In this document: positions 4,417 through 18,540 of the stretch, piece by piece
How positions within the stretch are numbered: the first letter of the stretch is position 1
Layout of the letters: each line of letters opens with the position of its first letter
NCBI GenBank assembly: GCA_030697165.1
Contig: JAUYQQ010000020.1
Coordinates: 1 to 34,052, forward strand
DNA: 34,052 bases
From: Acidobacteriota bacterium
Lineage (GTDB): Bacteria; Acidobacteriota; Vicinamibacteria; Vicinamibacterales; UBA2999
Reading direction: 5' to 3'
Position numbers and translations under genes: made by a program
Notes under the pieces: model-generated
The model's database searches: none
Told to the model about the DNA's origin: nothing
Seen by the model: only the letters and a program-made list of their open reading frames with translations

Positions 4417-4712
4417 CGCCACGTCGTCTCGCCCGACCTGGCTTGTGCAAGCCATCTGCCACGGCCGGCGGGGAGCGCCGACGGGCTGATTCCCTCGGTA
4501 ACAGACGGACACGAGATGCCGGGCGAGAACGGCGTGACCTGTGCGGAACTGCGCGGCCAGGCGGGCGCACACCCCTCCGCACGGTCTCCGGCTCACCGGG
4601 CTACTGGGAATGCGGCCGGAAGACGGGCGAAATGGGGCGAAACACACGGGTACGATTACTGCACGGCTCACCGGCGGTGCGATGGGCGGGACAGCACCGA
4701 GGAGAGGGTTCA
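4417..4712. other. Divergent intergenic region between Hpt and PilB-receiver genes
   Basis: About 296 bp without a convincing gene. The plus side contains TACGAT near 4652, a possible -10 for the ATPase gene, about 60 bp before its ATG. Long ORFs cross it on both strands, but their composition does not look like protein and they end in the flanking genes' frames. No repeat family of the window was found here. Confidence 0.5.
4701..4707 (+). promoter_or_regulatory. Shine-Dalgarno fixing the PilB-receiver start
   Basis: GGAGAGG stands five bases before the ATG at 4713. The open frame extends back to 4443, but only this ATG has a ribosome site, and the sequence before it lacks family similarity. 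Confidence 0.75.
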
Positions 4713-7004
4713 ATGACAGGCACGGGAGGGACCACGGCAGGTTTTGGGGCCAAATCAACGCTCAGACCAGACGCGGCGTTTGCCGCCTTCTTGTCGGGCC
4801 TGATGGCGCCGCCCGACGTCGCCTCGGTCGTGCGGCACGCCGATCAATACGGCGTGCTGCTCGTGGAAGCCGTCGTCGCGCTCGGCTTCATGAACGAAGC
4901 CAAGGCCTACGCCGCCCATGCCGAGTGGATGGGACGTCCATTCGTGGATCTGCACGACACCCCGCCCAACCCGACGGCGGCCCGCCTGCTACCCGAGCGC
5001 GTTTCGAGAGCGCGGCAAATTCTCGCCATCGCCCATGACAACCGGACCATGACCTACGCGTCGTCGTCGCTGTTCAACGACGAAGTCGATCGCGACGTCG
5101 CCTTCGCGTCGGGCCGCCGGCCTCAGATGGTCGTCGTGGCGAAGTCGCAGCTGGCCGACTCGCTCAACCAGTCGTACCGAACCGCCAACGACATCGAGAA
5201 GTTGCTCGACCGCATCCAGTTGAAGGAGCCCGTCAAGCCGATTGACGTGGCGACCTCCGGCGATCAGGATTCGCCGGTCATCGACTTGTGTAATCGGATC
5301 ATTGCCGCTGCCATTGCCGCCGGCGCGAGCGATGTTCACATCGAGCCCTCGGCCAACGGCGCCCTCGTGCGCCACCGCGTCTGCGGGATCCTCGAGACGC
5401 TGTTGACGCTGCCGGCGAGCGCGGTTCGCGGCGTGACCAATCGCTTCAAGCTGATGGCCAAGACCGACATCGCCACCAAGATGAAGCCGCAGGATGGCGC
5501 GTTCCGGGTCGCGGTGGGCGCAGAGGTTGTGGACGTCCGGCTCTCGGCGTTGCCGACCATTCACGGCGAGAAGCTCGTGATGCGGGTCATCCAGGGCGGG
5601 TCGGCGGTGCTCGGCATCGACACCCTCGGTTACGACAACCAGGCCCAGCGCATGCTGATTGCGGCCCTGTCGAAGCCGGACGGCCTGGTGCTGTGCACCG
5701 GACCGACGGGCTGCGGCAAGACCACGGTGCTCTACGCCGCCTTGAAGTTCCTGCAGACCGGCCGGGTCAACATCGTGACGGTGGAGGATCCGGTCGAGCG
5801 CCAGGTCGAAGGCGTCACCCAGATCGCGGTCAACACGAAGTCCGGCACGTCGTTCGTGAACGTGCTGCGCAGCGTCATGCGCCAGGACCCCAATGTCATC
5901 ATGGTCGGCGAGATTCGCGACAATGAAGTGGCCGAGATCGTCGGCCAGGCCGCCTACACCGGGCACCTCGTGTTGAGCTCGCTGCATACCATCGATGCGG
6001 CATCGGCGATCACGCGGCTGATCAATCTTGGGCTGCAGCCGTTCAAGGTGGCCGAAAGCCTCAACGCGATCGTTTCGCAACGCCTGCTTCGCAAGCTCTG
6101 CCCGTCGTGCCGCGTCACTAACGACGAGGCCACCGCGCTTCGGCTCGGCGCGCAGCACGGTGTGCCCAGCATCGGCGCCTCGGTCGGCCGCGGGTGCGAT
6201 CGCTGCAAACAATCCGGCTACGCCGATCGCATCGCGGTCCCGGAGATCCTGGCGCCCGACGAGGCGCTGCGCACCGCCATCCGTAACGGTGCGGGCGCGG
6301 CCGAGATCAGGGGGGCCATGCGCACCTCCGGGAGCCCATCCATGCGCGAGACCGCGCTGGCCCTGGTGGCGCAAGGGGTGACGTCGATCGAAGAAGTCAA
6401 CCGCGTGCTGACCGATCACAGTGACGAGGTGTCCTCAACCGGGTCGGTCCCTGCGGTCGCACCGGCGCCGGCGGTCCCGGCGGCTGCGGTCGTCATGGCG
6501 GTGGTGTCGGCCGAACCGGCGCCGCCCGCCGAACTGGTGCTGCCCGACCTACGGCCGATCATGCCGGCGCCGGCCGCGCCCCCGGCGATCGCTGTCTTGG
6601 GACCGCGGCCCCTGCCGAGCCGCCGCGTCCTCGTGACCGACGACGACCGCATGATCAGGCTGCTGGTCCGCATGCTTCTCGAGAAAGAGGGCTTCAAGGT
6701 GCTTGAAGCCGAAAACGGCGCCGTTGGGATGGAAACCGCGCGCCGCGAGAAGCCCGACCTGATGCTGGTCGACCTGCAAATGCCCGACATGGACGGGTTC
6801 CAGGTGATCCAGATGATGCGCGCCGATCCGGCGCTGTCGTCGATTCCGCTGGTGGTCCTGACGTCCGAGTCCGGCTCCGGCGTCGAAACCAAGGTGCTCG
6901 AGATGGGCGCCGACGACTACCTGACGAAGCCGTTCGAGCCCGAAGTGATGATTTCGCGCGTTCGCGCCGCGTTCCGCCGCGCGCAGCGGATCGCCGCGGC
7001 TTAG
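4713..7004 (+). CDS. PilB/GspE-type secretion ATPase fused to a C-terminal receiver domain
   Basis: A 763-residue hexameric motor ATPase of the type IV pilus/type II secretion family with an added CheY-like domain. Order: N-terminal GspE_N-like region (to about 150); ATPase core with Walker A GPTGCGKTT (330-338), Asp box, Walker B IMVGEIRD (about 393-400) and His box SSLHT; a zinc site of two CxxC pairs (CPSC near 462, CDRC near 495); an Ala/Pro linker (about 575-635); and a receiver domain (about 637-760) with the acidic pair in VTDDDR, phospho-acceptor D687 in LVDLQMPDMDG, T in VVLTSE and K in LTKPF. All catalytic residues of both parts are present. The fusion suggests pilus extension or secretion gated by phosphorylation; the divergent Hpt gene could supply the phosphate. 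Confidence 0.9.
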   Translation: MTGTGGTTAGFGAKSTLRPDAAFAAFLSGLMAPPDVASVVRHADQYGVLLVEAVVALGFMNEAKAYAAHAEWMGRPFVDLHDTPPNPTAARLLPERVSRARQILAIAHDNRTMTYASSSLFNDEVDRDVAFASGRRPQMVVVAKSQLADSLNQSYRTANDIEKLLDRIQLKEPVKPIDVATSGDQDSPVIDLCNRIIAAAIAAGASDVHIEPSANGALVRHRVCGILETLLTLPASAVRGVTNRFKLMAKTDIATKMKPQDGAFRVAVGAEVVDVRLSALPTIHGEKLVMRVIQGGSAVLGIDTLGYDNQAQRMLIAALSKPDGLVLCTGPTGCGKTTVLYAALKFLQTGRVNIVTVEDPVERQVEGVTQIAVNTKSGTSFVNVLRSVMRQDPNVIMVGEIRDNEVAEIVGQAAYTGHLVLSSLHTIDAASAITRLINLGLQPFKVAESLNAIVSQRLLRKLCPSCRVTNDEATALRLGAQHGVPSIGASVGRGCDRCKQSGYADRIAVPEILAPDEALRTAIRNGAGAAEIRGAMRTSGSPSMRETALALVAQGVTSIEEVNRVLTDHSDEVSSTGSVPAVAPAPAVPAAAVVMAVVSAEPAPPAELVLPDLRPIMPAPAAPPAIAVLGPRPLPSRRVLVTDDDRMIRLLVRMLLEKEGFKVLEAENGAVGMETARREKPDLMLVDLQMPDMDGFQVIQMMRADPALSSIPLVVLTSESGSGVETKVLEMGADDYLTKPFEPEVMISRVRAAFRRAQRIAAA

Positions 7005-7772: not shown

Positions 7773-8585
7773 TTAGCCAAGAATCTGGTTGAGCGCCAGG
7801 TGGCACGTTGCCGCAACTCTGTCTGGTGTCAGCTTGCGGTCTTGCGGGATCCGCACAGCCTCGCGAAGGATATCCGTGACTGAAAGGAATGTCGTGTCGG
7901 CCGCGTCGGACACCCGCTTCGCTGTCTTGGCGCCCAGGGTTGGCGCAAGCGACTTCTTCCAGAGGGCGGCAAGAGCCGGAAGCGCTCCGCCGAACAGCTC
8001 GATGGTGTCGTGGATGTAGAGCACGTCTTGCGCCTGCTTCGCGAGGGGTCGATGTTTCTGGATTAGTAGCTTCTGCACGATGAACGCGGCGGGGTTCGCG
8101 ACCAGAACGTCAATGGGCCTCGGCAGCGGGACACCCTGGTCCGCACCTATCTTGATCGACCACGGCTGGATCAACAGCGGCTCGAGGTGCCGGAGTTTCT
8201 GAGCCGTGATGCCGCCCTTCGTCATGGTTACGTCGGGCTCACCGTTTCGCTTGGTCTCACTGCCCCGAAGCGGTGTCAGGAACTCCGCATAGAAGCCAGC
8301 CGCTTCGTCACCAAGGGTGTAGTGAGCCACCGGTGGTTTGTGTTCGCCTGAAAGCTCTTCGTTGAACCCAGAGGCCGCCAGGGCGGAACGGAGGTCGCCG
8401 TCGAGGGGTGCATCGGCTCCGAACGCCAGGTCGGTATCTAGAGTAAACAAGGGCGCGTAGTCGGGGATGCTGGCGAGAGGATGAAACCGATGAAGACGAT
8501 GGGCCCAGCCGCCAACCAGCACGAGCTGAGCCCGCCACGGCTCGATTGCCTGGAGCAGGCGACCGAATGACTCGAGGTCCGTCAC
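7773..8585 (-). CDS. AbiEii-like nucleotidyltransferase (candidate toxin)
   Basis: A 270-residue protein with the polymerase-beta-type nucleotidyltransferase signature: VLVGGWAHRL with GG at 25-26, then TLDTDLAF with D50 and D52, the metal-binding DxD pair. Conserved basic/helical segments follow (ITAQKLRHLEPLL, PAAFIVQKLLIQKHRP), as in AbiEii/DUF1814-type proteins, where the Lys helps position the nucleotide. AbiEii toxins of type IV toxin-antitoxin systems use this fold to act on nucleotides or tRNA. The GTG start overlaps the stop of the upstream nuclease-like gene (GTGA), so the two are translationally coupled. Whether it is a toxin, and on what substrate, is inference. Confidence 0.75.
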   Translation of the reverse strand: MTDLESFGRLLQAIEPWRAQLVLVGGWAHRLHRFHPLASIPDYAPLFTLDTDLAFGADAPLDGDLRSALAASGFNEELSGEHKPPVAHYTLGDEAAGFYAEFLTPLRGSETKRNGEPDVTMTKGGITAQKLRHLEPLLIQPWSIKIGADQGVPLPRPIDVLVANPAAFIVQKLLIQKHRPLAKQAQDVLYIHDTIELFGGALPALAALWKKSLAPTLGAKTAKRVSDAADTTFLSVTDILREAVRIPQDRKLTPDRVAATCHLALNQILG

Positions 8586-9730
8586 TTGCCCGCGCCCTCG
8601 ACGACCGGCCGCAGCACCTTGCGGTAGATCAGCTCGGCCTGCTCTTCTCCTCGAGAGGGATGCGCCGCCACGTCGAGCCATACCTGAAGCACGTCGCAGC
8701 ACGCGACATCCCGCTCATCCACCATTCCCCGGAACACCGACTTGGGAACAGACGCCTTTCGCACGATGACGTCCGGGCGCTCGCCCGGCACGACTGCTGC
8801 CAATCCGCTCCAGCTTCTCAGCTCGACGTCGGACAGTTTCGCCACGTAGACGTACGGCAGCACACCTTTGACGTGGCCAAGCTTCAGCGCGTCGGCTGCG
8901 GCAAACAGTGCGAGACAGCTCTCGTGACTCGAGACGAACTGGTGAAGCTGCGGCTCCACCGAACCGCGAATCAGAAACCGCATGGGCACTTCGCGGGGCA
9001 TGGCCCGCCGCGACTCTGCCTGCCAGCGCCGGAACAGCTCGGCCCGGCGAACCAGGTTCAGGTATGGCGAGGACTCATCGACAAATCCTGCCTCGCGAAG
9101 CTGTTCGTGAAATCGAAAGGCGCTCATGACCGAAACGTCGGCAGCCTTTGCCAGCTCAGAGACGTTGCGATACCGGCCTCGAGGCGCCGAGAGCAGGCGC
9201 TCGTCAATCTCTCGAGCCAACAACACTTTCAGCATCCATTGATTGAGATCCGAAAAGAGATTGGGCGCCCCGCCAGCCGATCGGCTTGGACTGACTCGGA
9301 CAATGTTCGGGTTGAGATTCATCTCCTCCAAACCTGCGCCGACAAAGAAGCGGAGACCGGCCTCGCTGACAATTCCAATAGCGACGTCATTGGCGTAGTT
9401 CTTCGCGAACAGTCCGATTTGGCTGACGAGCGACGGGGAGGCATCGCGGACGTGGACCACCGCCAGGGGATTCACCTTCAGCGCCGCGGCATAGGCGCGT
9501 GCTTGGAGAATGGCGTGGGAGAGAAGCGGGATGACCCGGTCGCCGCGCCCCTCAGAATGGGCTTTCACTTCAACGACGAAGGCTTGGCGGCCCCGCTTAA
9601 CCAGAAAGTCGGGTGCGTACGGACCAGCATCCAGGTGGCGTTGGACCTTCCAGCCATGAGCGCTAAATAGCTCTGCAACAAGGTCTTCGGCCTTGGGCTC
9701 GGCTCGCCACGGTGCGTCGATAGGCTGCAT
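8582..9730 (-). CDS. PD-(D/E)XK nuclease-like plus winged-helix protein (AbiEi-like partner)
   Basis: A 382-residue protein. The N-terminal third has the restriction-endonuclease fold pattern: E15 in the first helix, D41 in APDFLV, E54-x-K56 in FVVEVKA and Q76 in AILQARAYA. The middle (about 175-225) reads as a winged helix: RYRNVSELAKAADVS, then FRFHEQLREAGFV. The C-terminal part resembles the AbiEi-type antitoxin tail, with a nucleotide-sensing-like segment and repeated VVPGERPDVIVRK/VYVAKL strands. AbiEi antitoxins repress their own operon and neutralise AbiEii; three palindromes just upstream of this ATG fit autoregulation. The intact nuclease residues are unusual for a simple antitoxin and raise a defence role. 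Confidence 0.75.
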   Translation of the reverse strand: MQPIDAPWRAEPKAEDLVAELFSAHGWKVQRHLDAGPYAPDFLVKRGRQAFVVEVKAHSEGRGDRVIPLLSHAILQARAYAAALKVNPLAVVHVRDASPSLVSQIGLFAKNYANDVAIGIVSEAGLRFFVGAGLEEMNLNPNIVRVSPSRSAGGAPNLFSDLNQWMLKVLLAREIDERLLSAPRGRYRNVSELAKAADVSVMSAFRFHEQLREAGFVDESSPYLNLVRRAELFRRWQAESRRAMPREVPMRFLIRGSVEPQLHQFVSSHESCLALFAAADALKLGHVKGVLPYVYVAKLSDVELRSWSGLAAVVPGERPDVIVRKASVPKSVFRGMVDERDVACCDVLQVWLDVAAHPSRGEEQAELIYRKVLRPVVEGAGK

Positions 9731-9736
9731 AGGCGT

Positions 9737-9791
9737 ATTACCATGGCCATGGTAATTATTATGGCCATGTTTATTAACACGGCCATGTTAA
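9737..9791. promoter_or_regulatory. Three 18-bp-spaced palindromic operators upstream of the nuclease/nucleotidyltransferase operon
   Basis: GGCCATG occurs at 9745, 9763 and 9781, exactly 18 bp apart. The first site is a perfect palindrome (ATTACCATGG and its complement, 9737-9756), ending seven bases from the operon's ATG. The third (9774-9791, TTAACACGG/CCATGTTAA) pairs at eight of nine positions; the middle one is weaker. The block is strongly AT-rich compared with its surroundings. Likely operators for the winged-helix protein, overlapping the promoter. Confidence 0.75.
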
Positions 9792-9844
9792 CACCCCCGG
9801 CCGGGTTCGGCAAGCTCGGCTCCGAACCAAGTTGACGCAGCGTC

Positions 9845-10942
9845 CTAATACTCGCTGAACATCCGCTGAATCTCGTTGCGGTCGGTCGTCCTGGTCAGCG
9901 CCAGCATCAGCAGGATGCGCGCCTTGACCGGGACGTGATCCTCGCCGGCCACGCTGAACTGCCGGCGGCGGCGCTGCGCCTCGTTGACCTGCGCACCCGC
10001 CGGGAAGTCACCGCGCGGCGGCGCAATGCGGCCGCTGCCGGTGCGCGTGCTGGTCACCACGAACACGCCCTTCTCGGCCGCGTAGGCCAGGCCCTCGTTC
10101 TGGGTGCCGCTGGTCGCGCCGGCGCCGGCCACCGCGATCACGATGCCCTTGGCGCCGTTATCGACCGCCGCCTTGATCATGTCGCCGGACGCGCCCTGGT
10201 AGACCATGATGACGTCCACGCGCGGCAACTCGGTGACCTTCGACAGGTCGAACTCGACCCGCTCGTTGGTGCGCTGGGTGATCTGGTTGAAGAACACCAC
10301 CCGGTCGCGATCGACGACGCCCAGTTGGCCGTACTCGCGGCTGCGAAACGTTTGCAGCCGCAGCGCATCGGTCTTGGTGACGTTGCGTGCCGAATTGATC
10401 TCGTCGTTCAACACCACCAGCGCGCCCTTGTTGCGCGCGGCCGGGTCGGCCGCGACCCGCACGCCTTCGAGCAGGTTGGCCGCGCCCTCGTATCCAAGCG
10501 TGCTGGGGTTGCGCATGGAACCGACGACCACCACCGGCCGCGGGTCGCGGACGGTCAGGTGCAGGAAGAAGGCCGTCTCTTCCAGCGTGTCGGTGCCACT
10601 GGTGACGACGATGCCGGCGATGTCCTTGTCTTTCGCGTACAGGTCGTTGATGTGCTTGGCGAGATCCAGCCACTGCTTGAGCGTCAAGTTACTGCTGGCC
10701 ACGTTCGCGAACTGCTCGAACGTGAGACGGGCATACCGCTCGACGCCCGGCATCGACTTGGCCAGTTCCTCGGCCGTCAGCCGGCCGCCGTCGCGGTTCG
10801 AAATGGTGCCGCCGGTCGCCACGAAATGGACACGGGGCAGCGTGGTGGCCGCGGGTTGGGCGAAGAGCGGCGCCGCGCCAGGCCTCAGGCACACCAGCGC
10901 CATCGCCAACAGCAACGCCGGACGAAAGACGAGTCGGATCAT
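9845..10942 (-). CDS. ansB: Type II L-asparaginase, exported
   Basis: A 365-residue asparaginase, hydrolysing asparagine to aspartate and ammonia. A signal peptide (about 1-29: basic start, hydrophobic core LLLAMALVCL, cleavage near LFAQPA) sends it to the periplasm. Both threonine motifs are present: FVATGGTIS (T46) and VVTSGTDTLEETAFFL. The C-terminal half has VDVIMVYQGASGDM and GIVIAVAGAGATSG, as in the family. The start at 10942 is chosen over the longer frame because it begins the signal peptide. CATAAT lies six bases before the ATG. A small conserved-looking gene precedes it after seven bases. The last 24 codons have a diverged copy at 7697-7772. Confidence 0.93.
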   Translation of the reverse strand: MIRLVFRPALLLAMALVCLRPGAAPLFAQPAATTLPRVHFVATGGTISNRDGGRLTAEELAKSMPGVERYARLTFEQFANVASSNLTLKQWLDLAKHINDLYAKDKDIAGIVVTSGTDTLEETAFFLHLTVRDPRPVVVVGSMRNPSTLGYEGAANLLEGVRVAADPAARNKGALVVLNDEINSARNVTKTDALRLQTFRSREYGQLGVVDRDRVVFFNQITQRTNERVEFDLSKVTELPRVDVIMVYQGASGDMIKAAVDNGAKGIVIAVAGAGATSGTQNEGLAYAAEKGVFVVTSTRTGSGRIAPPRGDFPAGAQVNEAQRRRRQFSVAGEDHVPVKARILLMLALTRTTDRNEIQRMFSEY

Positions 10943-10948
10943 GGGTAG

Positions 10949-10954
10949 ATTATG
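10949..10954 (-). promoter_or_regulatory. -10-like hexamer of the asparaginase gene
   Basis: CATAAT on the minus strand, six bases before the asparaginase ATG and overlapping the TAA stop of the small gene upstream. The spacing would put the transcript start at the start codon. No clear -35 was found. Confidence 0.4.
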
Positions 10955-11165
10955 TATTGGCCGGGGCCGCGCCGGACACGAGAGACAGCCAATTGCCGAG
11001 CTCCCGGGCCGCGTCCTCCGCCGTCTTGCCATAAAACGGCATCATCGACGTCTGGATGCCCGGCCGCCGGACGATCTGCGCCCGCCAGCGCTCGGCCGCC
11101 ACCAGTGACACTTCAATCTGGTACGTGCGACCGGCGATCTGCTGTTCGAAAAGTTGATTGGGCAC
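10950..11165 (-). CDS. Small hypothetical protein upstream of asparaginase
   Basis: A 71-residue soluble protein starting GTG, with alternating strand-like segments (GRTYQIEVSLVAAERWRAQIVRRP) and a helix ending TAEDAARELGNWLSLV, a layout like small HicB-like or DUF-type alpha/beta folds. I do not recognise the family. TACAAT sits 13 bases before the GTG on the minus strand. It ends seven bases before the asparaginase gene on the same strand, so co-transcription is likely. Confidence 0.6.
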   Translation of the reverse strand: MPNQLFEQQIAGRTYQIEVSLVAAERWRAQIVRRPGIQTSMMPFYGKTAEDAARELGNWLSLVSGAAPANT

Positions 11166-11358: not shown

Positions 11359-12735
11359 GTGATCCTCCGCTGGACTCTGATTCTCGCCGCGTTTGCGATG
11401 CCGGCTGCCGTAGAGGCGCAGACGCCGGCCAGCCGCGTGTTGTTCCGGGTGTTTCTCTCGGATGGGCGTGTCCTGGCCAGCTACGGCGAGTGGGCGCGAG
11501 TTGACGATCGCGTGATTTTCTCGATTCCCACCCGGCTGAGCGGCGATCCGGTCGAGTTGCACCTGGTGAACATCGCGTCGGGCCGCGTCGATTGGCCGCG
11601 GACTGAGCTGTACGCAGAATCGGTGCGCGCCGTGGCCTACGCCGAAACCAGGGGTGAGGCTGATTTCGCCCGCTTCAGCAGCGAAATGGCCAAGACCCTC
11701 AACGAGGTGTCGCGGATTGCCGACCCGGGCGTGCGCCTGGCCACCGCCGAGCGCGCCCGGCAGTCGCTGGCCGAATGGCCCGCCTCGCACTACGGCTACC
11801 GCATCGGCGAAGTCCGCCAGTCGCTCGACGTGCTCGACGAGATCATCTCGCAGCTGCGCGTCGCCGTCGGCCAGACCCGTTTCGACCTGGCGCTCAGCGC
11901 GCCGCTGGCCGTGCCGCCGCCGCCACCCTTGCCGCCGCCGACCGACGCCGAGCTGGTGGAGCAGTTGGTGGCCGCCGCCTCGCTCGCCGAATCACCGGCC
12001 GAGCGAATCACGCTGCTGCAATCGGTGATGCGCCTGCTGGATCGCGCGGTCGGCCTGTTGCCCGACGCGTGGGCCCGGCGTGTCCGTGGCTCGGTCGGTG
12101 TGGACCTCGAGCACGAACGACAGGTTGAGCGCGCCTATACCGTGCTGCGGCAGCGCACCCTCGAAACCTCCGCCAGGCTGGCGCGGCAGGGCGATCGCCG
12201 CGAGTTCGAGAAGCTGCGCGAGCAGGTGATCGCCGAAGACCACCGGCTCGGTGGCGCACGGGCCGGCGAGATTTCCGCGTTGCTCGCGACTATCGATCTG
12301 CAGGCCAATGGCGCCACCGAAGCCCGCGAAACCCGCAAGGAATGGGAGAAGCGCGAGCAGACCTATCGCCGCTACCGCCGCTCGATGAACGGTTCCTTCA
12401 ACGTGTTCCGCGACGCGACCGTCAGCCTCCACCAGGTGCGGACACTGGCGGGCCCGCCGCTCCATACCCTCGAGGCGATCGCCAAGCGCCTGGCGTCGGC
12501 CGGCGTGAAGATTGGCAAGGTCACGCCGCCTGCCGACCTGGCCAACGGACACGCGCTGGTCCGCAGCGCCTGGGAACTGGCCGAGACGGCGCTGCGCCTG
12601 CGCCGCGAATCGGTATCGAGCAACAGCATCGACAGCGCGCAGCGCGCCTCGTCTGCGGCGGCCGGCGCGCTGATGCTGTATCAGCGCGCGCGCGCCGATC
12701 TCGCGGCGGCGATGGCGCCGCCGGCCGCCAAGTGA
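11359..12735 (+). CDS. Secreted helical protein of unknown function
   Basis: A 458-residue protein beginning at GTG with a signal peptide (LRWTLILAAFAMPAAVEAQ). After a short beta region (about 25-85) it is mainly helical with charged heptad-like stretches, a proline-rich linker (PPPPPLPPP near 195) and a further long helical part, so a periplasmic coiled-coil or TPR-like protein is plausible. I recognise no family. TAAACT lies ten bases before the GTG. Its stop overlaps the GTG of addB (GTGA), an odd coupling since AddB is cytoplasmic; the pairing may reflect only transcription. Confidence 0.75.
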   Translation: MILRWTLILAAFAMPAAVEAQTPASRVLFRVFLSDGRVLASYGEWARVDDRVIFSIPTRLSGDPVELHLVNIASGRVDWPRTELYAESVRAVAYAETRGEADFARFSSEMAKTLNEVSRIADPGVRLATAERARQSLAEWPASHYGYRIGEVRQSLDVLDEIISQLRVAVGQTRFDLALSAPLAVPPPPPLPPPTDAELVEQLVAAASLAESPAERITLLQSVMRLLDRAVGLLPDAWARRVRGSVGVDLEHERQVERAYTVLRQRTLETSARLARQGDRREFEKLREQVIAEDHRLGGARAGEISALLATIDLQANGATEARETRKEWEKREQTYRRYRRSMNGSFNVFRDATVSLHQVRTLAGPPLHTLEAIAKRLASAGVKIGKVTPPADLANGHALVRSAWELAETALRLRRESVSSNSIDSAQRASSAAAGALMLYQRARADLAAAMAPPAAK

Positions 12736-15700
12736 TCACCCCCCGCCGTACCCGGCTCCTGCGCGCGGCCGGCCTCGACGGCTTTCGCGCGCACCTCGCC
12801 GAGCTGGTGCGCGTCGCCCCGGGCGGCGCCGACAGCTTCCTGCTGGTGCCGACCGCGGCCGCGGGCGAGCAGCTGCGCCGCACCTTGCGCGCCCGGCTTG
12901 GTGACGCCGTTGCCATGCCGCCGATCGGCACCCGCGCCGAACTGTACGAGCGGCTCCTGGCGCGGCTGCGGCCCGATGCCCGCACGCTGTCGGGATTCGA
13001 ACGCGAAGCCCTGATCGCCGCCGCGGCGCGCGAGGCCGAGGACGCCGGCGTGCCGCCACCGTTTCATGTCCGGCCGGCGCTCGTCGCCGAGATGCTGGCC
13101 CTCTATGACTACCTGCGCCGGCTGCAACGTTCGGTCGATGACTTCGACCGCCTGCTGACCGGCGAGCTCGAGCCGGCCGCCGATTCCGACCAGGGCGCCG
13201 CGCAACTGCTCGAGCAGACGCGCTTCCTGACGGCCACGTTTCGCGGCTACGAATCGCGATTGCTCGACACCGGCCTTCTCGACGAACACGCCGCGCGCGC
13301 GTTGCTGATTGACACGCGGGCGGCGGCGCCGCTGCGGCACGTGGTGATCACCGTTGGCGATCGGCCGCTCGATCCGGACGGCCTGTGGCCGGCCGACGTG
13401 GTGATGCTCACGAGCTTGCCCGGCCTCGAGGCCATCGACGTGGTGGCGACCGACGCTACCCTCGAGGCGGGCTACCTCGATCGTCTTCGGCTCGCGTTCG
13501 TCGGCATCGAGGAAACCGAGTCGTCTTTGCTTGCCGCCCCGGCGCCAGCCATCGTCGTGCCCGCAGGCACCCCTCGATTCGCCCCTGGGGCTCGCTCAGG
13601 GCAAGCGGCAGGCGAGCTGCCTTTTGCCCTGGAGTATCGCGATCGCGAGGAAGAACTCGAAGGCGTGGCCCGGCGGCTGAAGGCCGACCGCCGATCGGGC
13701 CGTCACGTGGCTCTCGAGCAGACCGCCCTGGTGGTTGCGCGGCCGCTGCCGTATCTCTATCTCGCCCGCGATGTGTTCCAGGGCGCCGGCGTGCCGTTCG
13801 AGGCGCTCGATACGTTGCCGTTGGCGGCCGAACCGTACGCCGCCGCCGTCGATGTCGCCATGGAGTGCGTGGCCGCCGGCTTCACCCGCCGCGCCCTTGT
13901 CGCGCTGCTGCGCTCGCCGCACTTCCGCTTCGTCGCCGGCGATGCCGGCGACGCCGACGTCGGCCGCGATGCGATTGCCGCGCTCGACGTCACGCTCGCC
14001 GAACAGCGCTACCTGGGCGGCCTGGATCGTCTGGCCTCGCTGGCCGACTCGTGCCGCGGGACGGCGCAACCGGCCTTTGCCGCCGCGCTCGCCGCCGGCA
14101 CACTGTTGTCGCCTCTGGGCGAGTCGCACCCCATGGTCGAGCACGTGGACCGGTTGCGGGCGTTTCTCGATCGTCACGATCGTCCGCAGCCGGGCAACGA
14201 CCGTCGCGACCGCGTCCGCGCCGCGGTCACGCTGGCCCTGGCGGGACTGGGCGAGGCGTACCGGCGTCACGATCCCGGCGCCAGCGGCACCATCACCGAT
14301 CTCTCCGCCGCCGTTCGGCGCTGGCTCGGCGCCCAGACCTTTGCCCTCCGCACCGGCGAAGGCGGTCTCCAGATCCTCGATCGCCAGGCGGCCCGTTTTG
14401 CCGATGTTGACGATGTGCAGGTGATGGGGCTGGTGGAGGGGGAGTGGCCCGAGCGGCCGCGGCGCAACATCTTCTATCCGCAATCGCTGCTCGCGCAGTT
14501 GGAGCCGGCCCGCCCCGATCGCGTGGCGCTTCACCAGGAACGCGACCTGGTGCGGTTTGCGCGCGCGTCGTTCCACGACTTGCTGATGTCCGCGCGGCAC
14601 CGCGTCCGCGTCTCGACGTTCGCGCTCGAGTCTGACGCGGTGGTCGAGCCGTCAGCGTTTCTCGACGACTTGCCCACGCTGGGACTGTCGCGCGAGGTGT
14701 CAACGCTGGATCCAACCGTCCAGGTGTTTGCCTACGAAGCGCTGGCGGCCTTGAAGGAAGGCGTAGGGCCTGCCGTAGGGGCTACCGTAGGGCCGCACTT
14801 TAGTGCGGCCGTAACCAAATGGGCCCACGTCCGCGCCGGTGGCGCCGTGCGGGAACGTGCCCGCTTCGAGGGCGAGGCGGGGCCGTGGGTGTTGCCCCGC
14901 GTCAGCGTCAGCCGCCTCGAGCGGTATCTGAAGTGCCCGTTCCAGTTCTACGTGACCAACGTGCTGCAGGTAGACGAGGAGCCGGAGGACGAGAACACGC
15001 GCTCGCCGCTCGTCCGCGGCCGCTTCCTCCACGAGCTGTTCGAGACGTTCTTCCACGAGTGGCAAGCGCGCGGCCGCGGCCGCATTACCGCGGCCGACAT
15101 GGCCGAGGCGCGGGCGCTGTTCGTCGAGATCTGCGAGCCGGCGCTGGCGTCGCTGTCGCCGGCCGAGGCCGGCCTCGAACGGGCGCGGCTGTATGGGTCG
15201 GCGGTCGGTTCCGGCATCGCCGAGCGGGTGTTCGCCATGGAAGCCGAGCGCGGCACTGCGATCCGCGAACGGCTGATGGAGTTCGAGCTCGACGGCGAGT
15301 TTGCGTTCACGGGCGAAGACGGCGCCAGTCGCACGGTGCGGCTGCGCGCGAAGATCGATCGCGTGGACGTGCTGGCCGACGGCACCTTTCGCGTGATCGA
15401 CTACAAGACGAAGTACGTGCCCGACCGCCGCATCGCGTTGCAGCTGCCGATCTACAGCGCCGGCGTGCGCGCGCGGTTGTCGGCCGAACGCGGCGCCGGC
15501 CTCACCGCCAGCGAGGCCATGTACCTGTCGTTCGAAGGCCCACAGGCGGTGATGCCGCTCAAGGAAACCGGCAAGTCGTTCGACGAGCTGGTGACGGCCG
15601 CCGAGCACCGGCTGGTGCAGGCGCTCGACGACATTGCCGCCGGGCACTACCCGCCGCGGCCCGAGACCCGCAACCTCTGCGGCATGTGCGCCTTCGTGGC

Positions 15701-15755
15701 GGTGTGCCGCACGCCGGGCGGCCTGCCTGCCGAGCCGGGGGCCCACGATGAGTGA
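12732..15755 (+). CDS. addB: AddB-type exonuclease subunit with Fe-S nuclease domain
   Basis: A 1007-residue homologue of the AddB/RexB subunit of the RecBCD-like helicase-nuclease that resects double-strand breaks. The C-terminal PD-(D/E)XK nuclease is complete: D876 in AKIDRVD and D890-Y-K892 in VIDYKTK. The Fe-S staple is complete: C735 (YLKCPFQFY), then C983, C986 and C992 (CGMCAFVAVC), the same C-x2-C-x5-C spacing as AddB. The N-terminal helicase-like part has LLVPTAAAGEQLRR but no Walker A, so it would not hydrolyse ATP. The start is GTG overlapping the upstream stop. Two repeat-like insertions are read in frame (13571-13610 and 14763-14810). It overlaps addA by eight bases. Confidence 0.9.
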   Translation: MITPRRTRLLRAAGLDGFRAHLAELVRVAPGGADSFLLVPTAAAGEQLRRTLRARLGDAVAMPPIGTRAELYERLLARLRPDARTLSGFEREALIAAAAREAEDAGVPPPFHVRPALVAEMLALYDYLRRLQRSVDDFDRLLTGELEPAADSDQGAAQLLEQTRFLTATFRGYESRLLDTGLLDEHAARALLIDTRAAAPLRHVVITVGDRPLDPDGLWPADVVMLTSLPGLEAIDVVATDATLEAGYLDRLRLAFVGIEETESSLLAAPAPAIVVPAGTPRFAPGARSGQAAGELPFALEYRDREEELEGVARRLKADRRSGRHVALEQTALVVARPLPYLYLARDVFQGAGVPFEALDTLPLAAEPYAAAVDVAMECVAAGFTRRALVALLRSPHFRFVAGDAGDADVGRDAIAALDVTLAEQRYLGGLDRLASLADSCRGTAQPAFAAALAAGTLLSPLGESHPMVEHVDRLRAFLDRHDRPQPGNDRRDRVRAAVTLALAGLGEAYRRHDPGASGTITDLSAAVRRWLGAQTFALRTGEGGLQILDRQAARFADVDDVQVMGLVEGEWPERPRRNIFYPQSLLAQLEPARPDRVALHQERDLVRFARASFHDLLMSARHRVRVSTFALESDAVVEPSAFLDDLPTLGLSREVSTLDPTVQVFAYEALAALKEGVGPAVGATVGPHFSAAVTKWAHVRAGGAVRERARFEGEAGPWVLPRVSVSRLERYLKCPFQFYVTNVLQVDEEPEDENTRSPLVRGRFLHELFETFFHEWQARGRGRITAADMAEARALFVEICEPALASLSPAEAGLERARLYGSAVGSGIAERVFAMEAERGTAIRERLMEFELDGEFAFTGEDGASRTVRLRAKIDRVDVLADGTFRVIDYKTKYVPDRRIALQLPIYSAGVRARLSAERGAGLTASEAMYLSFEGPQAVMPLKETGKSFDELVTAAEHRLVQALDDIAAGHYPPRPETRNLCGMCAFVAVCRTPGGLPAEPGAHDE
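13571..13610. repeat. Possible repeat insertion read in frame within addB
   Basis: A palindrome-bearing stretch (GCCCCTGGGGC, then GCTCGCTCAGGGC) codes for a Gly/Ala/Arg-rich segment, FAPGARSGQAAGE, unlike the flanking AddB sequence. It looks like a dispersed palindromic element captured in the gene, but no second copy is in the window. Confidence 0.3.
14763..14810. repeat. 12-bp tandem repeat plus REP-like hairpin inside addB
   Basis: GTAGGG starts at 14763, 14775 and 14787, giving three 12-bp units, and the last runs into a perfect hairpin, GGCCGCACT-TT-AGTGCGGCC (14791-14810). The same GTAGGG-plus-hairpin form is found at 7084. The insert codes in frame for GVGPAVGATVGPHFSAAV, just before the first Fe-S cysteine. 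Confidence 0.75.
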
Positions 15756-18540
15756 TCAGCCCCGCCTGCAATTCGAGCCGGAGGAGACCGCCGACGATCG
15801 CGCGCGGCGGATGGCGGTCGATCCGGCGCGCAACGTCGCGCTCGAAGCCTCAGCCGGCACCGGCAAGACGCGCGTGCTCGTCGATCGCTACGTCCGCCTG
15901 CTCGAAGTCGGCGTTGCGCCGCGCAACATTCTCGCGATCACCTTCACGCGCAAGGCCGCGGCCGAAATGCGCCAGCGCGTCATGGCCACGCTGCGCGAAC
16001 GCCACCGGCTGGGCAGCCTGACCGGCGATCGCTGGCGCGAGATCCGCGATGCTTTCGGCGACATCTCCATCAGCACCATCGACGCGTTCTGCCTGTCGTT
16101 GCTCCACGAGTTTCCGCTGGAGGCCGGGGTCGATCCGGGTTTCGACCTCGCCGACGAAACCGAAACGCCGCGATTCGTCGAGTCGTCTTTGGATCGCGCG
16201 CTGGCGGTCGGACGCGGCGTCTCGCTCGGCGATCCGGACGTGGCGCTGCTGCTCACCGAATTGGGCGAGCCGCGGCTGCGCAAGGGACTCGCGGCGCTGC
16301 TCGATCGCCGGCTGGTCGCCTGGGACGCGCTCAATCGCTTCCTGCGCGGGCGCGATGTCACGGCCGAGGCGGCGTGCCTGCGGCTGCTCCAGACACTGCG
16401 TGCCGCGATTTCCTCGGTCGGCGGCGCCGCGGCGTTTCGCGCCTGCGGCCCGGCCGCGCCCGGCTTCGACCTGGTCGCGTACGACGTGGACCAGATCATG
16501 GCCGAGCCGCCACCATCGCCGGCGCGGCTGCGAGGCACGTTGGATCGAGTGGCCGACCTGGTGCTGACCAAGGACGGCGGACCGCGGAAGCGGCTGAAGC
16601 ACAAGAAGGCCGACTACCGCTCGGCGGCTGATTACGAACGCCACAAGGTGGTGGTGTTCGGCCTCGGCCCTCACGTGGAGCGCGCGTCGGCGGCGTTTCG
16701 CCATGACCTCAACATCGTGCTCGCCCGCGGCGTCAGGCGTCTGTTCGCGATTGCGCAGGACGAATACCGCCGCACCCTCGACAAGCACGGTGTGCTCGAT
16801 TTCCCCGATCTGCTGGAGCGCACCCTGAAGCTGCTTGGGCAGATGGAAGAGTTCTCGCGCAGCCGCTACCGGCTGGAATCGCGGTACGAGCACGTGCTCG
16901 TCGACGAGTTCCAGGACACGAGCCGCGCCCAGTGGCAGCTGGTCCGCGAATTGGTCCGCGCCTGGGCGGCCGGCGAGGGCATGGTGCACGGCCCCATCCC
17001 CCCCTCCATCTTCATCGTCGGCGACCGCAAGCAGTCGATCTACGGCTTTCGCGACGCCGAGGTCACGGTGCTCGACGCGGCCGGCCGCTTCATCGAGGCC
17101 CTGCGGCCCGAGACACCCTCGCGCGCGGCGATCACCCGCAGTTACCGATCGGTGCAGGAGCTGCTGGCGTTTGTGAACGACGTGTTTGCCGACGTGGAGA
17201 AGGCGCTGGATCGGCCGGATGCGTTCCGGTACGGCGAAGATGACGTGTTCCCGCTCGTGGACGAGGGCCCGCGCGGCGCGGATGCGGTGGGCGTGGTGGT
17301 TGCCGACACCGATGCGGCCCAGGCCGAGGCGGTGGCCGACGAGATTGCGCGGCTGTTGATTGCCGGCGTGACCGTGCGCGACCGCCAGACCGGCGTGCGG
17401 CGCGCGGTGCAGCCGGGCGACATCGGCCTGCTGTTTCGCACGCGCGAGGGCCACGCGCTGTTCGAGGCCGCGCTGGCGCGCGGCGGCGTGCCGTTCTACG
17501 TCTACAAGGGCCTGGGATTCTTCGACGCGGATGAGGTCAAGGACGTGCTGGCGCTCGTCGCGTACCTGGCCGAGCCGGGATCGAACCTGCGCGCGGCGGC
17601 GTTCTTGCGATCGCGGCTCGTGCGGCTGTCGGACGAGGCGTTGAAGCTACTGGCGCCGGGGCTGGCCGGCGCAGTGACGGCCGCCGAACCGCCGCCGGCA
17701 GCGGCCGAGCTGGCGCCCGACGATCGCGAACGGCTGCTGCTGGCGCGCGACAGCGTCGGCGCGTGGATCGCGATGGCCGACCAGCTGCCGCCGGCCGAGG
17801 TCGTGGACCGGGTGCTGGCCGAGGCGGCGTACGCGGTGGAGATTGGCGGCCCGGGCTTCGCGCAAGCGCGTGAGAACCTGAAGAAAGTACGGGGCCTGAT
17901 TCGCCGCATCCAGAACCGCGGGTACGCCACGCCTGGGCGACTGTCGGACTACTTCGCCGAACTGGCGGCCGGTGGCGACGAGTCAAACGCCATCATCGAT
18001 GCCGCCGATGCCGTGAACCTGATGACCGTGCACGCGGCCAAGGGGCTCGAGTTCCCGGTGGTGTTCGTCGTGAACATTGGACGTGGCAGCGGCGGCGGAC
18101 GAGACGACATTCGCGTGGTGGCGCCGGCGTTTGTCGATGATGAGAGGGAGGCGGGCGAGGCGTCGGTGAGCGTGAGCGATCACCAGAGCGACAGCGATCG
18201 CGACGCCGACGAGCGGGACCGGGAGGAAACCAAGCGCCTGCTTTATGTGGCGCTGACGCGGGCCCGGGATCGGCTGTATTTGTCGGGAACGGCGGTGGGC
18301 GGCCAGCTGGTCCTTCAGCGCGGCTCGCTGGGGCGGATCCTGCCGGCGTCCCTGATGACCGCTGCTACGACCGGGCTGGACCCTGAATTCGTGTGGCAGG
18401 GCCACTCGGCCGCGCACCGGATTCGGCGCGTCCCGGCGGCCGGTCCGGCGCCGCGCACCTGGCGGTTGCCGCGACTGGCGGACGAAAGACTGGCCGACCT
18501 CGAACCATTCGAGGCACGTAAAGACGTCCAAAGCCGCTAA
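15748..18540 (+). CDS. addA: AddA-like UvrD-family helicase without nuclease domain
   Basis: A 930-residue SF1 helicase, the motor partner of the AddB-type nuclease. Motifs: Walker A ASAGTGKT (K40), Ia TFTRKAAAEM, Walker B VDEFQDT (D386, E387), III/IV GDRKQSIYGFRDAE, V VNLMTVHAAKGLEFPVVF and VI LLYVALTRARDRLY. Canonical AddA (about 1200 residues) continues with a PD-(D/E)XK domain; here only about 70 residues follow motif VI, with no such motif, and the next gene starts 81 bp later with no nuclease-like remnant. The complex would therefore have one nuclease centre, on AddB. The ATG lies inside the end of addB (8-bp overlap), so the two are coupled. Confidence 0.9.
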   Translation: MSDQPRLQFEPEETADDRARRMAVDPARNVALEASAGTGKTRVLVDRYVRLLEVGVAPRNILAITFTRKAAAEMRQRVMATLRERHRLGSLTGDRWREIRDAFGDISISTIDAFCLSLLHEFPLEAGVDPGFDLADETETPRFVESSLDRALAVGRGVSLGDPDVALLLTELGEPRLRKGLAALLDRRLVAWDALNRFLRGRDVTAEAACLRLLQTLRAAISSVGGAAAFRACGPAAPGFDLVAYDVDQIMAEPPPSPARLRGTLDRVADLVLTKDGGPRKRLKHKKADYRSAADYERHKVVVFGLGPHVERASAAFRHDLNIVLARGVRRLFAIAQDEYRRTLDKHGVLDFPDLLERTLKLLGQMEEFSRSRYRLESRYEHVLVDEFQDTSRAQWQLVRELVRAWAAGEGMVHGPIPPSIFIVGDRKQSIYGFRDAEVTVLDAAGRFIEALRPETPSRAAITRSYRSVQELLAFVNDVFADVEKALDRPDAFRYGEDDVFPLVDEGPRGADAVGVVVADTDAAQAEAVADEIARLLIAGVTVRDRQTGVRRAVQPGDIGLLFRTREGHALFEAALARGGVPFYVYKGLGFFDADEVKDVLALVAYLAEPGSNLRAAAFLRSRLVRLSDEALKLLAPGLAGAVTAAEPPPAAAELAPDDRERLLLARDSVGAWIAMADQLPPAEVVDRVLAEAAYAVEIGGPGFAQARENLKKVRGLIRRIQNRGYATPGRLSDYFAELAAGGDESNAIIDAADAVNLMTVHAAKGLEFPVVFVVNIGRGSGGGRDDIRVVAPAFVDDEREAGEASVSVSDHQSDSDRDADERDREETKRLLYVALTRARDRLYLSGTAVGGQLVLQRGSLGRILPASLMTAATTGLDPEFVWQGHSAAHRIRRVPAAGPAPRTWRLPRLADERLADLEPFEARKDVQSR

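Follow-up and report, generated by a model that had tools for sequence, protein, structure and literature searches.

The question raised by this locus is whether three palindromic sites lying ahead of a two-gene operon form an operator for the operon's own winged-helix protein, as the initial annotation had proposed, or whether another reading fits them better. The window referred to throughout is the whole stretch of DNA that was analysed, 34,052 nucleotides in length. We hold it very probable that the array is the dedicated operator of an AbiE/MenAT-like, toxin-antitoxin-like two-gene operon and that the first protein of this operon binds it for autorepression. It may be noted that the array, its pitch and its overlap with promoter signals are seen at the level of sequence, and that binding, repression, toxicity and cooperativity are what we infer.

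The array in the window and the operon that follows it

9808..9813, minus strand: putative -35 box TTGCCG, a 4/6 match to TTGACA at offset -31..-26 from the first-site centre
9785..9790, minus strand: putative -10 box TAACAT, the left arm of site 1, with a 17-bp spacer to the -35 box
9776..9780, minus strand: predicted transcription start region, ~7 bp past the -10 box, placed by promoter geometry
9775..9790: site 1 on the promoter side, read on the minus strand as TAACATGGCCGTGTTA, a near-perfect dyad found at the same position in homologues
9757..9772: site 2 in the middle, read on the minus strand as AAACATGGCCATAATA, an imperfect dyad
9739..9754: site 3, TACCATGGCCATGGTA, which adjoins the ATG and is the core of the perfect 20-bp palindrome 9737-9756
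8582..9730, minus strand: 382-aa protein with a PD-(D/E)XK-like domain (~11-140), a winged helix (~160-230) and an AbiEi/MenT-like C-terminal domain (~256-377)
7773..8585, minus strand: 270-aa nucleotidyltransferase of PF12281 (NTP_transf_8), which overlaps the end of the first gene; a 309-aa ORF is its upstream-extended form

On reading the sequence, GGCCATG starts at 9745, 9763 and 9781, and the repeat finder returned three 20-nt copies from 9736, 9754 and 9772 with spacings of 18 and 18, which bears out the triple repeat at exact 18-bp spacing that had been reported. The site next to the ATG had been called a perfect 20-bp palindrome, and 9737-9756 is indeed a 10+10 palindrome whose arms are 100% complementary by the repeat finder. 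The sites had also been graded by quality. By reading, the outer site (halves TTAACACGG and CCATGTTAA) has a mismatch in 1 of 9 pairs and the middle site (halves ATTATTATGG and CCATGTTTAT) in 3 of 10, so that a near-perfect outer site and a degraded middle one stand; by consensus score, however, the outer site reaches 20 while the middle site ties with the ATG-side site at 18. The AT-rich island in GC-rich DNA is likewise present, with 36% GC at 9736-9791 as opposed to 68% in the whole window, the lowest value of any 56-mer in it. When both strands of the window were searched, GGCCAT-N12-GGCCAT-N12-GGCCAT occurred a single time, and in the whole 5.39-Mb genome ATGGCCAT-N10-ATGGCC found this array alone, once per strand. 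The array sits in a 114-bp gap between the minus-strand operon and another minus-strand gene (9845-11032), which from its translation we take to be L-asparaginase-like. As the operon is read leftward, the 382-aa gene being on the minus strand, the site at 9781 is the one on the promoter side. Elsewhere in the window, on the forward strand, an 853-aa ORF (4443-7004) was read by eye as one polypeptide with a GspE/PilB-type ATPase ahead of a response-regulator receiver domain, and two long ORFs (12342-18540) as an AddB/AddA-like helicase-nuclease pair.

The 382-aa protein would serve as autorepressor and antitoxin. Its model (67 sequences) has a mean pLDDT of 90.7 and a pTM of 0.66. Residues ~11-140 align with PD-(D/E)XK proteins (2inb, Z 9.7, 3.3 A over 116 residues); Foldseek matched this N-terminal domain to Hjc with an E of about 0.002, and a weak Mrr_cat match (0.0042) lies below the cut-off. 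Residues 256-377 align with MenT1 8an4 (Z 7.3, 2.8 A, 118 residues) and with AbiEi 6y8q (Z 5.9, 3.8 A, 106 residues), both at Z < 8, where a match may reflect a common arrangement. The winged helix is weakly assigned, from secondary structure and from weak family hits among 67 relatives (HTH_Crp_2 in 19, MarR in 12, IclR in 8); it was hardly covered in the VIA structure comparison, and profiles run against solved structures gave marginal hits only. At the family cut-off the window protein has no match to PF09952 (AbiEi_2). Profile A1 for this protein was built from the window and 66 of 75 references, leaving out L026, L041, L047, L052, L070, L071, L078, L085 and L086. One copy each of the first and the second gene was found in the genome of the window. 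Protein 1 matched one viral contig and four plasmid records, and none of the phage records. Of the 398 phylum genomes around G404, G404 alone gave a match. On one plasmid (L107, NZ_CP090643.1) the operon has an IS66 transposase in its vicinity and a RES family NAD+ phosphorylase as its neighbour; its first gene is annotated as an RpiR family transcriptional regulator, an assignment that finds no support in the domains detected here. A seemingly broken copy of the first gene, with a split match and one internal TGA, was seen at G313 C1:345719-346214 (L118 and L128).

The genes overlap at 8582-8585, giving a bicistronic operon with the winged-helix gene first. The 270-aa protein, probably the toxin, matches PF12281 with 99.3 bits against a cut-off of 26.3. 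The same family was found in all 43 scanned relatives, with PF08843 (DUF1814) not among the matches; across 43 sequences G25, G26, T48 and D52 are invariant and D50 is kept in at least 90%. The model of protein 2 (pLDDT 94.0, pTM 0.91) aligns with MenT3 6j7q (Z 12.9, 4.0 A, 214 residues), MenT1 8an5 (Z 12.4) and MenT4 6y56 (Z 11.1). Profile A2 holds the window and 42 of 58 references. A partner nucleotidyltransferase was detectable in 74 of 81 related loci, a set made of the 71 array loci without the window and ten further ones. It was not detected at L022, L030, L035, L038, L059 (a contig end), L076 and L077; of these, L022, L030, L035, L038 and L077 have the first gene and the operator with no detectable nucleotidyltransferase downstream, and at L022 a long ORF, presumably SIR2-like, takes the partner's place. 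With a defence-island setting in view, flanking ORFs (100 of 103, from 39 loci) were compared with PADLOC and Pfam, it being noted that they were picked by length and that many may not be genes. Among the matches listed, which covered 25 of 95 and 25 of 77 families, there were a few defence proteins, namely a type III restriction enzyme, PglX and PD-T4-6, amid mixed genes.

Conservation of the array, its pitch and its promoter

Relatives of the first protein with 33-57% identity were collected at 80 loci in one scan of genome contigs, giving 81 loci with the window; they come from Pseudomonadota, Acidobacteriota, Gemmatimonadota and other phyla. L084-L088 and L091 were dropped (L084, L085 and L086 repeat L026, L023 and L077, respectively), while one 76-row locus set still includes L085, L086 and L026; L113 is identical to L036, and L116 is the locus of L090. 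The chain finder placed an array upstream in 72 of the 81 loci, with three sites in 55, two in 11 and four in 6 after 18-bp extension; two of these loci, L039 and L068, have GCGC or GCCC cores. The initial annotation had suggested aligning homologous operons for a shared GGCC-centred palindrome, and the absence upstream of close homologues that would count against an operator did not occur. Four further loci have 18-bp arrays outside the finder's result (L074, L076, L078 and L080), three of them of other sequence; L074 has a GCGC array at 18 bp and L078 also has an 18-bp array. No array was found at L009 (a short broken frame), L069 (start unclear) and L082 (a partial match), and L041 (masked) and L054 (47 nt upstream), though counted in the 81, could not show one.

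The spacing is nearly invariant. When successive sites with a score of at least 16 were taken with no spacing filter, 121 of 128 intervals were exactly 18 and none was 17 or 19, the other seven being 16 (2), 35 (1), 36 (2), 43 (1) and 93 (1). At a looser score of 14, with neighbours at 17-19 allowed, there was one interval of 17 bp (L038) and one of 19 bp (L070). Two sites 18 apart were present in 0 of 4050 Markov-resampled upstream regions (50 for each of the 81 loci), and the in-gene control of the 81 gave no site pair, which places the array beyond chance. It may be noted that the scoring rule was fixed after the sequences were inspected, and that the loci are related, some of them nearly identical, so that counts of loci and intervals are not independent trials.

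The core tetramer is GGCC in 170 of 211 sites and GCGC in 9, and L030, L035 and L038 have one site of each kind. Two logos of 61 arrays apiece, one anchored at the first site and one at the last, both lose conservation just outside the end sites. This sharp drop makes the GGCC-centred dyad, with half-sites TAnCATGG and CCATGnTA, the unit on sequence grounds, and not the AATT-centred dyad that lies between sites. The layout is thus one of 16-bp palindromes set 2 bp apart, which gives the 18-bp pitch, with 2-4 sites in the relatives. Units of one locus agree at 11.9 of 16 positions, as against 11.7 for units at the same position and 11.5 for units at different positions of other loci. With so small a gain in likeness within a locus, the array looks old, with its pitch kept by selection, and recent tandem duplication as the cause of the constant pitch was rejected on these values. 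The graded quality of the sites, from which ordered binding had been suggested, fails as a conserved trait: among the 55 arrays with three sites, the lowest quality (ties shared) fell to the third site in 27.2, to the first in 16.7 and to the middle in only 11.2, and mean palindromic identities were near equal (6.02, 5.84 and 5.80 of 8).

The array also has a fixed relation to promoter signals. In the 61 arrays of at least three sites, a TTGAC signal lies at -31 to -27 from the first-site centre, 17 bp ahead of a TA[A/T]CAT logo which, at -8..-3, is the left arm of the first site. Over the 72 arrays the TTGACA-like signal peaks at -31, where the mean match is 2.60, against 1.41 (SD 0.22) over the offsets tried; at least four positions match in 24 of the 72 loci, and the -35 signal is weak in the other 48. 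A -35-like signal 17 bp before the left arm of site 1 suggests that this arm serves as the -10 box, and site 1 thus likely coincides with it. By the same geometry, transcription in the window should start near 9778, and its leader of ~48 nt would include sites 2 and 3. The likely -10 box within site 1 and the nucleotidyltransferase nature of the partner gene are points that go beyond the initial annotation.

Changes in operator sequence were compared with the winged helix of the protein. At position 202, in the recognition helix, 76 of 80 aligned proteins (the identical pair L036/L113 included, L026 left out) have M, and R206 is kept in 79. The exceptions at 202 are P in L076, L078 and L080 and S in L090, and all four are members whose cores are other than GGCC or GCGC and are still 18 bp apart. 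Of these, L076 and L080 have ATCCTG repeats 18 apart (at 894 and 912, and at 2711 and 2729); L078 has CATGATCATG at 2868, 2904 and 2922, the first two being separated by an imperfect unit; and L090/L116 has CTCTGAACAGAG with a second dyad 18 on. L107, by reading, has M202 yet mixed cores. When dyad distances were scanned with no motif assumed, 9 of 14 family rows had their best value at 18, with L090 and L116 being one locus; 27 was best in L108 and L131, where 18 was second or tied second, and 19 was best in L090, where 18 came third. The scanned stretch excluded the arrays of L076 and L080, whose spacing comes from a separate look, and the broken copy L118 was not counted. One pitch is seen across GGCC, GCGC, CATGATCATG, ATCCTG-type and CTCTGAACAGAG operators, and it persists down to ~26% identity (L090). 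The difference between GCGC and GGCC cores did not map to any one residue. Shifts in operator sequence thus appear to go with recognition-helix changes as a correlation, one that phylogeny confounds.

Other readings of the array

An RNA role is improbable in our estimate. Transcription from ~9778 would put sites 2 and 3 in the leader, where hairpins formed by them might regulate how the operon is translated, and over all arrays the GGCC dyads have 111 G-T mismatches against 66 A-C ones. Yet on dividing the 55 three-site arrays by site, the G-T excess holds for sites 1 (30 vs 12) and 3 (35 vs 10) and is reversed in site 2 (22 vs 31), and site 1 lies half upstream of the predicted start, so the excess does not follow transcription. 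The left arm of site 1 is also the likely -10 box, the distance from the last site to the mechanically chosen start codon varies from 2 to 45 with a median of 18 (69 loci), and the rigid 18-bp pitch has no obvious reason in RNA. The hairpin reading was rejected since the mismatch types, uneven as their counts are, show no consistent sign.

Palindromic AT-rich operators are common targets of regulators, and a global regulator unrelated to the operon might bind the array in place of the operon's own protein. What speaks against this is how rarely the array is met elsewhere. The array model R1 (54 positions, built from 54 arrays) matched 45 of 46 genome handles at E <= 0.01, where the pairs G388/G433, G028/G409 and G167/G412 are one genome each. 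Its best match was the operon's own promoter in all 39 locus-derived handles and, by coordinates, at the operon in six more (G000, G167, G028, G362, G388 and G185); no match was obtained in G153, whose homologue is the distant L090 with its different operator. R1 partly recovers its own training arrays, and the informative part is how little else it found. Among the candidates scored in the 46 handles there were 3 weak places elsewhere: G000 C22:314615 (E 3.3e-4), G399 C52:214089 (E 0.0039) and G396 C67:15042 (E 0.0042). Here R1 scored 125 first-look candidates per genome (23 in the scan of 247 phylum genomes), and weaker arrays may be missed. In that scan 4 of the 247 genomes match at E <= 0.001, all of them with the gene beside the best match. 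A strict two-site pattern, which does not match the window itself, occurred in 13 of 45 handles (12 genomes, G388 being G433) and in 2 of 396 phylum genomes, by coordinates always at the operon; a control with the pattern reversed gave one match in the 396. Arrays moreover recur with the gene across several phyla, and operator changes accompany changes in the gene's own recognition helix. We consider a global regulator very unlikely. As a separate observation, the weak place in G000 (C22:314615-314655, which is L141 3115-3155) is a second palindromic promoter, GGCCATGATATATATCAATGATATATACTATGGCC, unrelated to the first and lying in the same genome ahead of a small gene that we take to be AbrB/VapB-like.

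The nuclease-like domain could also have the array as its target, or as a site of self-recognition, in a function of a restriction or maintenance type, with the overlap with the promoter being secondary. The N-terminal fold is PD-(D/E)XK-like, and D41, E54 and K56 are all kept in the window protein and in 56 of the 80 proteins. Against this, the D-[E/D/Q]-K triad is absent in 19 of the 80, of which 13 have counted arrays and the remaining 6 (L076, L080, L107, L108, L109 and L131) have dyads 18 bp apart, so that catalysis is not required for having the operator. R62 is kept in 80 of 80 as opposed to 62 for E54, and the array lies at the promoter with a fixed geometry to the -35 signal. The chance of this reading is in our view just as slight as that of a global regulator.

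A small upstream peptide encoded by an 18-bp repeat of six codons (ATG GCC ATG TTA ATT AAC) hardly deserves credence and was rejected, for although 18 is divisible by 3 and 58 of 72 arrays leave the ATG-GCC frame open, third codon positions hold the most information (~1.53 bits, against 1.00 at first and 1.06 at second positions), the reverse of coding, conservation is dyad-symmetric and there is no fixed frame with the gene (29, 25 and 15 of 69).

Proposed regulation and comparison with known systems

That the operon's winged-helix protein has its own multi-site operator here is supported, as far as sequence can tell, by the arrays of the 72 loci, their overlap with the promoter and their place at this operon. 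In the mechanism that we propose, the winged helix of the first protein would bind each palindrome as a two-fold subunit pair, and neighbouring pairs would touch, thereby fixing the pitch. With site 1 occupied the -10 box would be blocked, and the block would be carried on over the transcription start by sites 2 and 3, so that the operon represses itself and is derepressed when the level of the first protein falls. The MenT-like nucleotidyltransferase would be the toxin and the C-terminal domain of the first protein the antitoxin part, as in AbiE/MenAT. Cooperativity is plausible given the rigid spacing, exactly 18 in nearly all intervals. Its sign cannot be assumed, as PMC7319586 describes negative cooperativity for autorepression by Rv2827c; binding in pairs at each dyad is likewise an assumption, as AbiEi is described there as binding its 23-bp repeats as monomers.

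A further reading is that of a molecular ruler, in which the protein assembles side by side at a fixed 18-bp pitch, the nuclease-like domain is mainly an assembly surface, and specificity evolves within a constant geometry. We offer this tentatively, as a possibility somewhat short of an even chance. If true, the three pairs would be spread around the helix, 18 bp being ~1.7 turns, and the family would be a natural series of specificity evolving inside a constant nucleoprotein geometry. In any case a precise, testable operator is now attached to a toxin-antitoxin-like family that spans several phyla. With a constant 18-bp pitch and sequence changes linked to the helix, protein-DNA specificity and cooperative assembly become directly testable, and the array model offers a means of locating such operons and of separating them from AbiEi_2-type ones. 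Placed in a tree of 79 rows, the window protein groups with 35 Pseudomonadota rows and one row from a viral contig in a 37-row set (100/99) that is separate from the remaining Acidobacteriota-labelled rows; if the genome of the window is Acidobacteriota, horizontal transfer of the operon is likely.

The gene order, with the winged-helix gene first and a nucleotidyltransferase-fold gene second, is that of AbiEi-AbiEii (type IV, Streptococcus agalactiae) and of MenA4-MenT4 (Rv2827c-Rv2826c). The C-terminal domain of protein 1 aligns with AbiEi and the partner with MenT3, MenT1 and MenT4, in both cases as models. MenT toxins undergo antitoxin-induced auto-phosphorylation, according to PMC11375011. 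AbiEi and Rv2827c autorepress via inverted repeats (PMC7319586), and here too, by sequence, inverted repeats overlap the predicted promoter as in AbiE and MenA4-MenT4. The repeats themselves differ. As given in PMC7319586, the AbiEi operator has two 23-bp inverted repeats 3 bp apart, to which AbiEi binds as monomers, and Rv2827c has four repeats with 4- and 13-bp gaps, whereas in the window three 16-bp sites, each palindromic in itself, follow one another at an 18-bp pitch. Also unlike AbiE/MenAT, the winged helix lies mid-protein, behind the nuclease-like domain, and the partner belongs to PF12281 and not to DUF1814, only its fold being MenT-like.

Also related are the AbiEi_2 / COG4861 (PF09952) proteins, which profile A1 finds in the same phylum. 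Weak matches to PF09952 occur among relatives of the window protein (L078 at 0.0028, below the cut-off, and 1 of 67 at 0.0047), and a Q-x-[WY]-LD...RG motif is shared. The AbiEi_2 loci L121 (also seen as L091) and L125 have, by eye, a nucleotidyltransferase-like gene downstream. Unlike the family of the window, none of 11 AbiEi_2-type loci had its best dyad distance at 18. Of these loci, L117, L121, L123, L125 and L129 pass PF09952 and the other six were assigned by profile hit or alignment. An upstream 16-bp palindrome, such as TTCACCGTACGGTGAA or TTCAACCGATGTTGAA, is present in L120, L121, L122, L123, L126, L127 and L129. The same gene pair as in the window, with arrays upstream by reading, was seen on Burkholderia and Paraburkholderia plasmids as GSU2403 family nucleotidyltransferase fold proteins next to genes annotated as RpiR family regulator or hypothetical, a comparison made by NCBI product names only. 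In the best-ranked titles and abstract openings of the literature searched, GSU2403 appeared only with IHF in Geobacter, and no description of this operator or family was found. Autoregulation by an antitoxin, as proposed here, is of a known kind, and what is new is an 18-bp pitch that survives changes of operator sequence and was not seen in AbiEi_2-type relatives.
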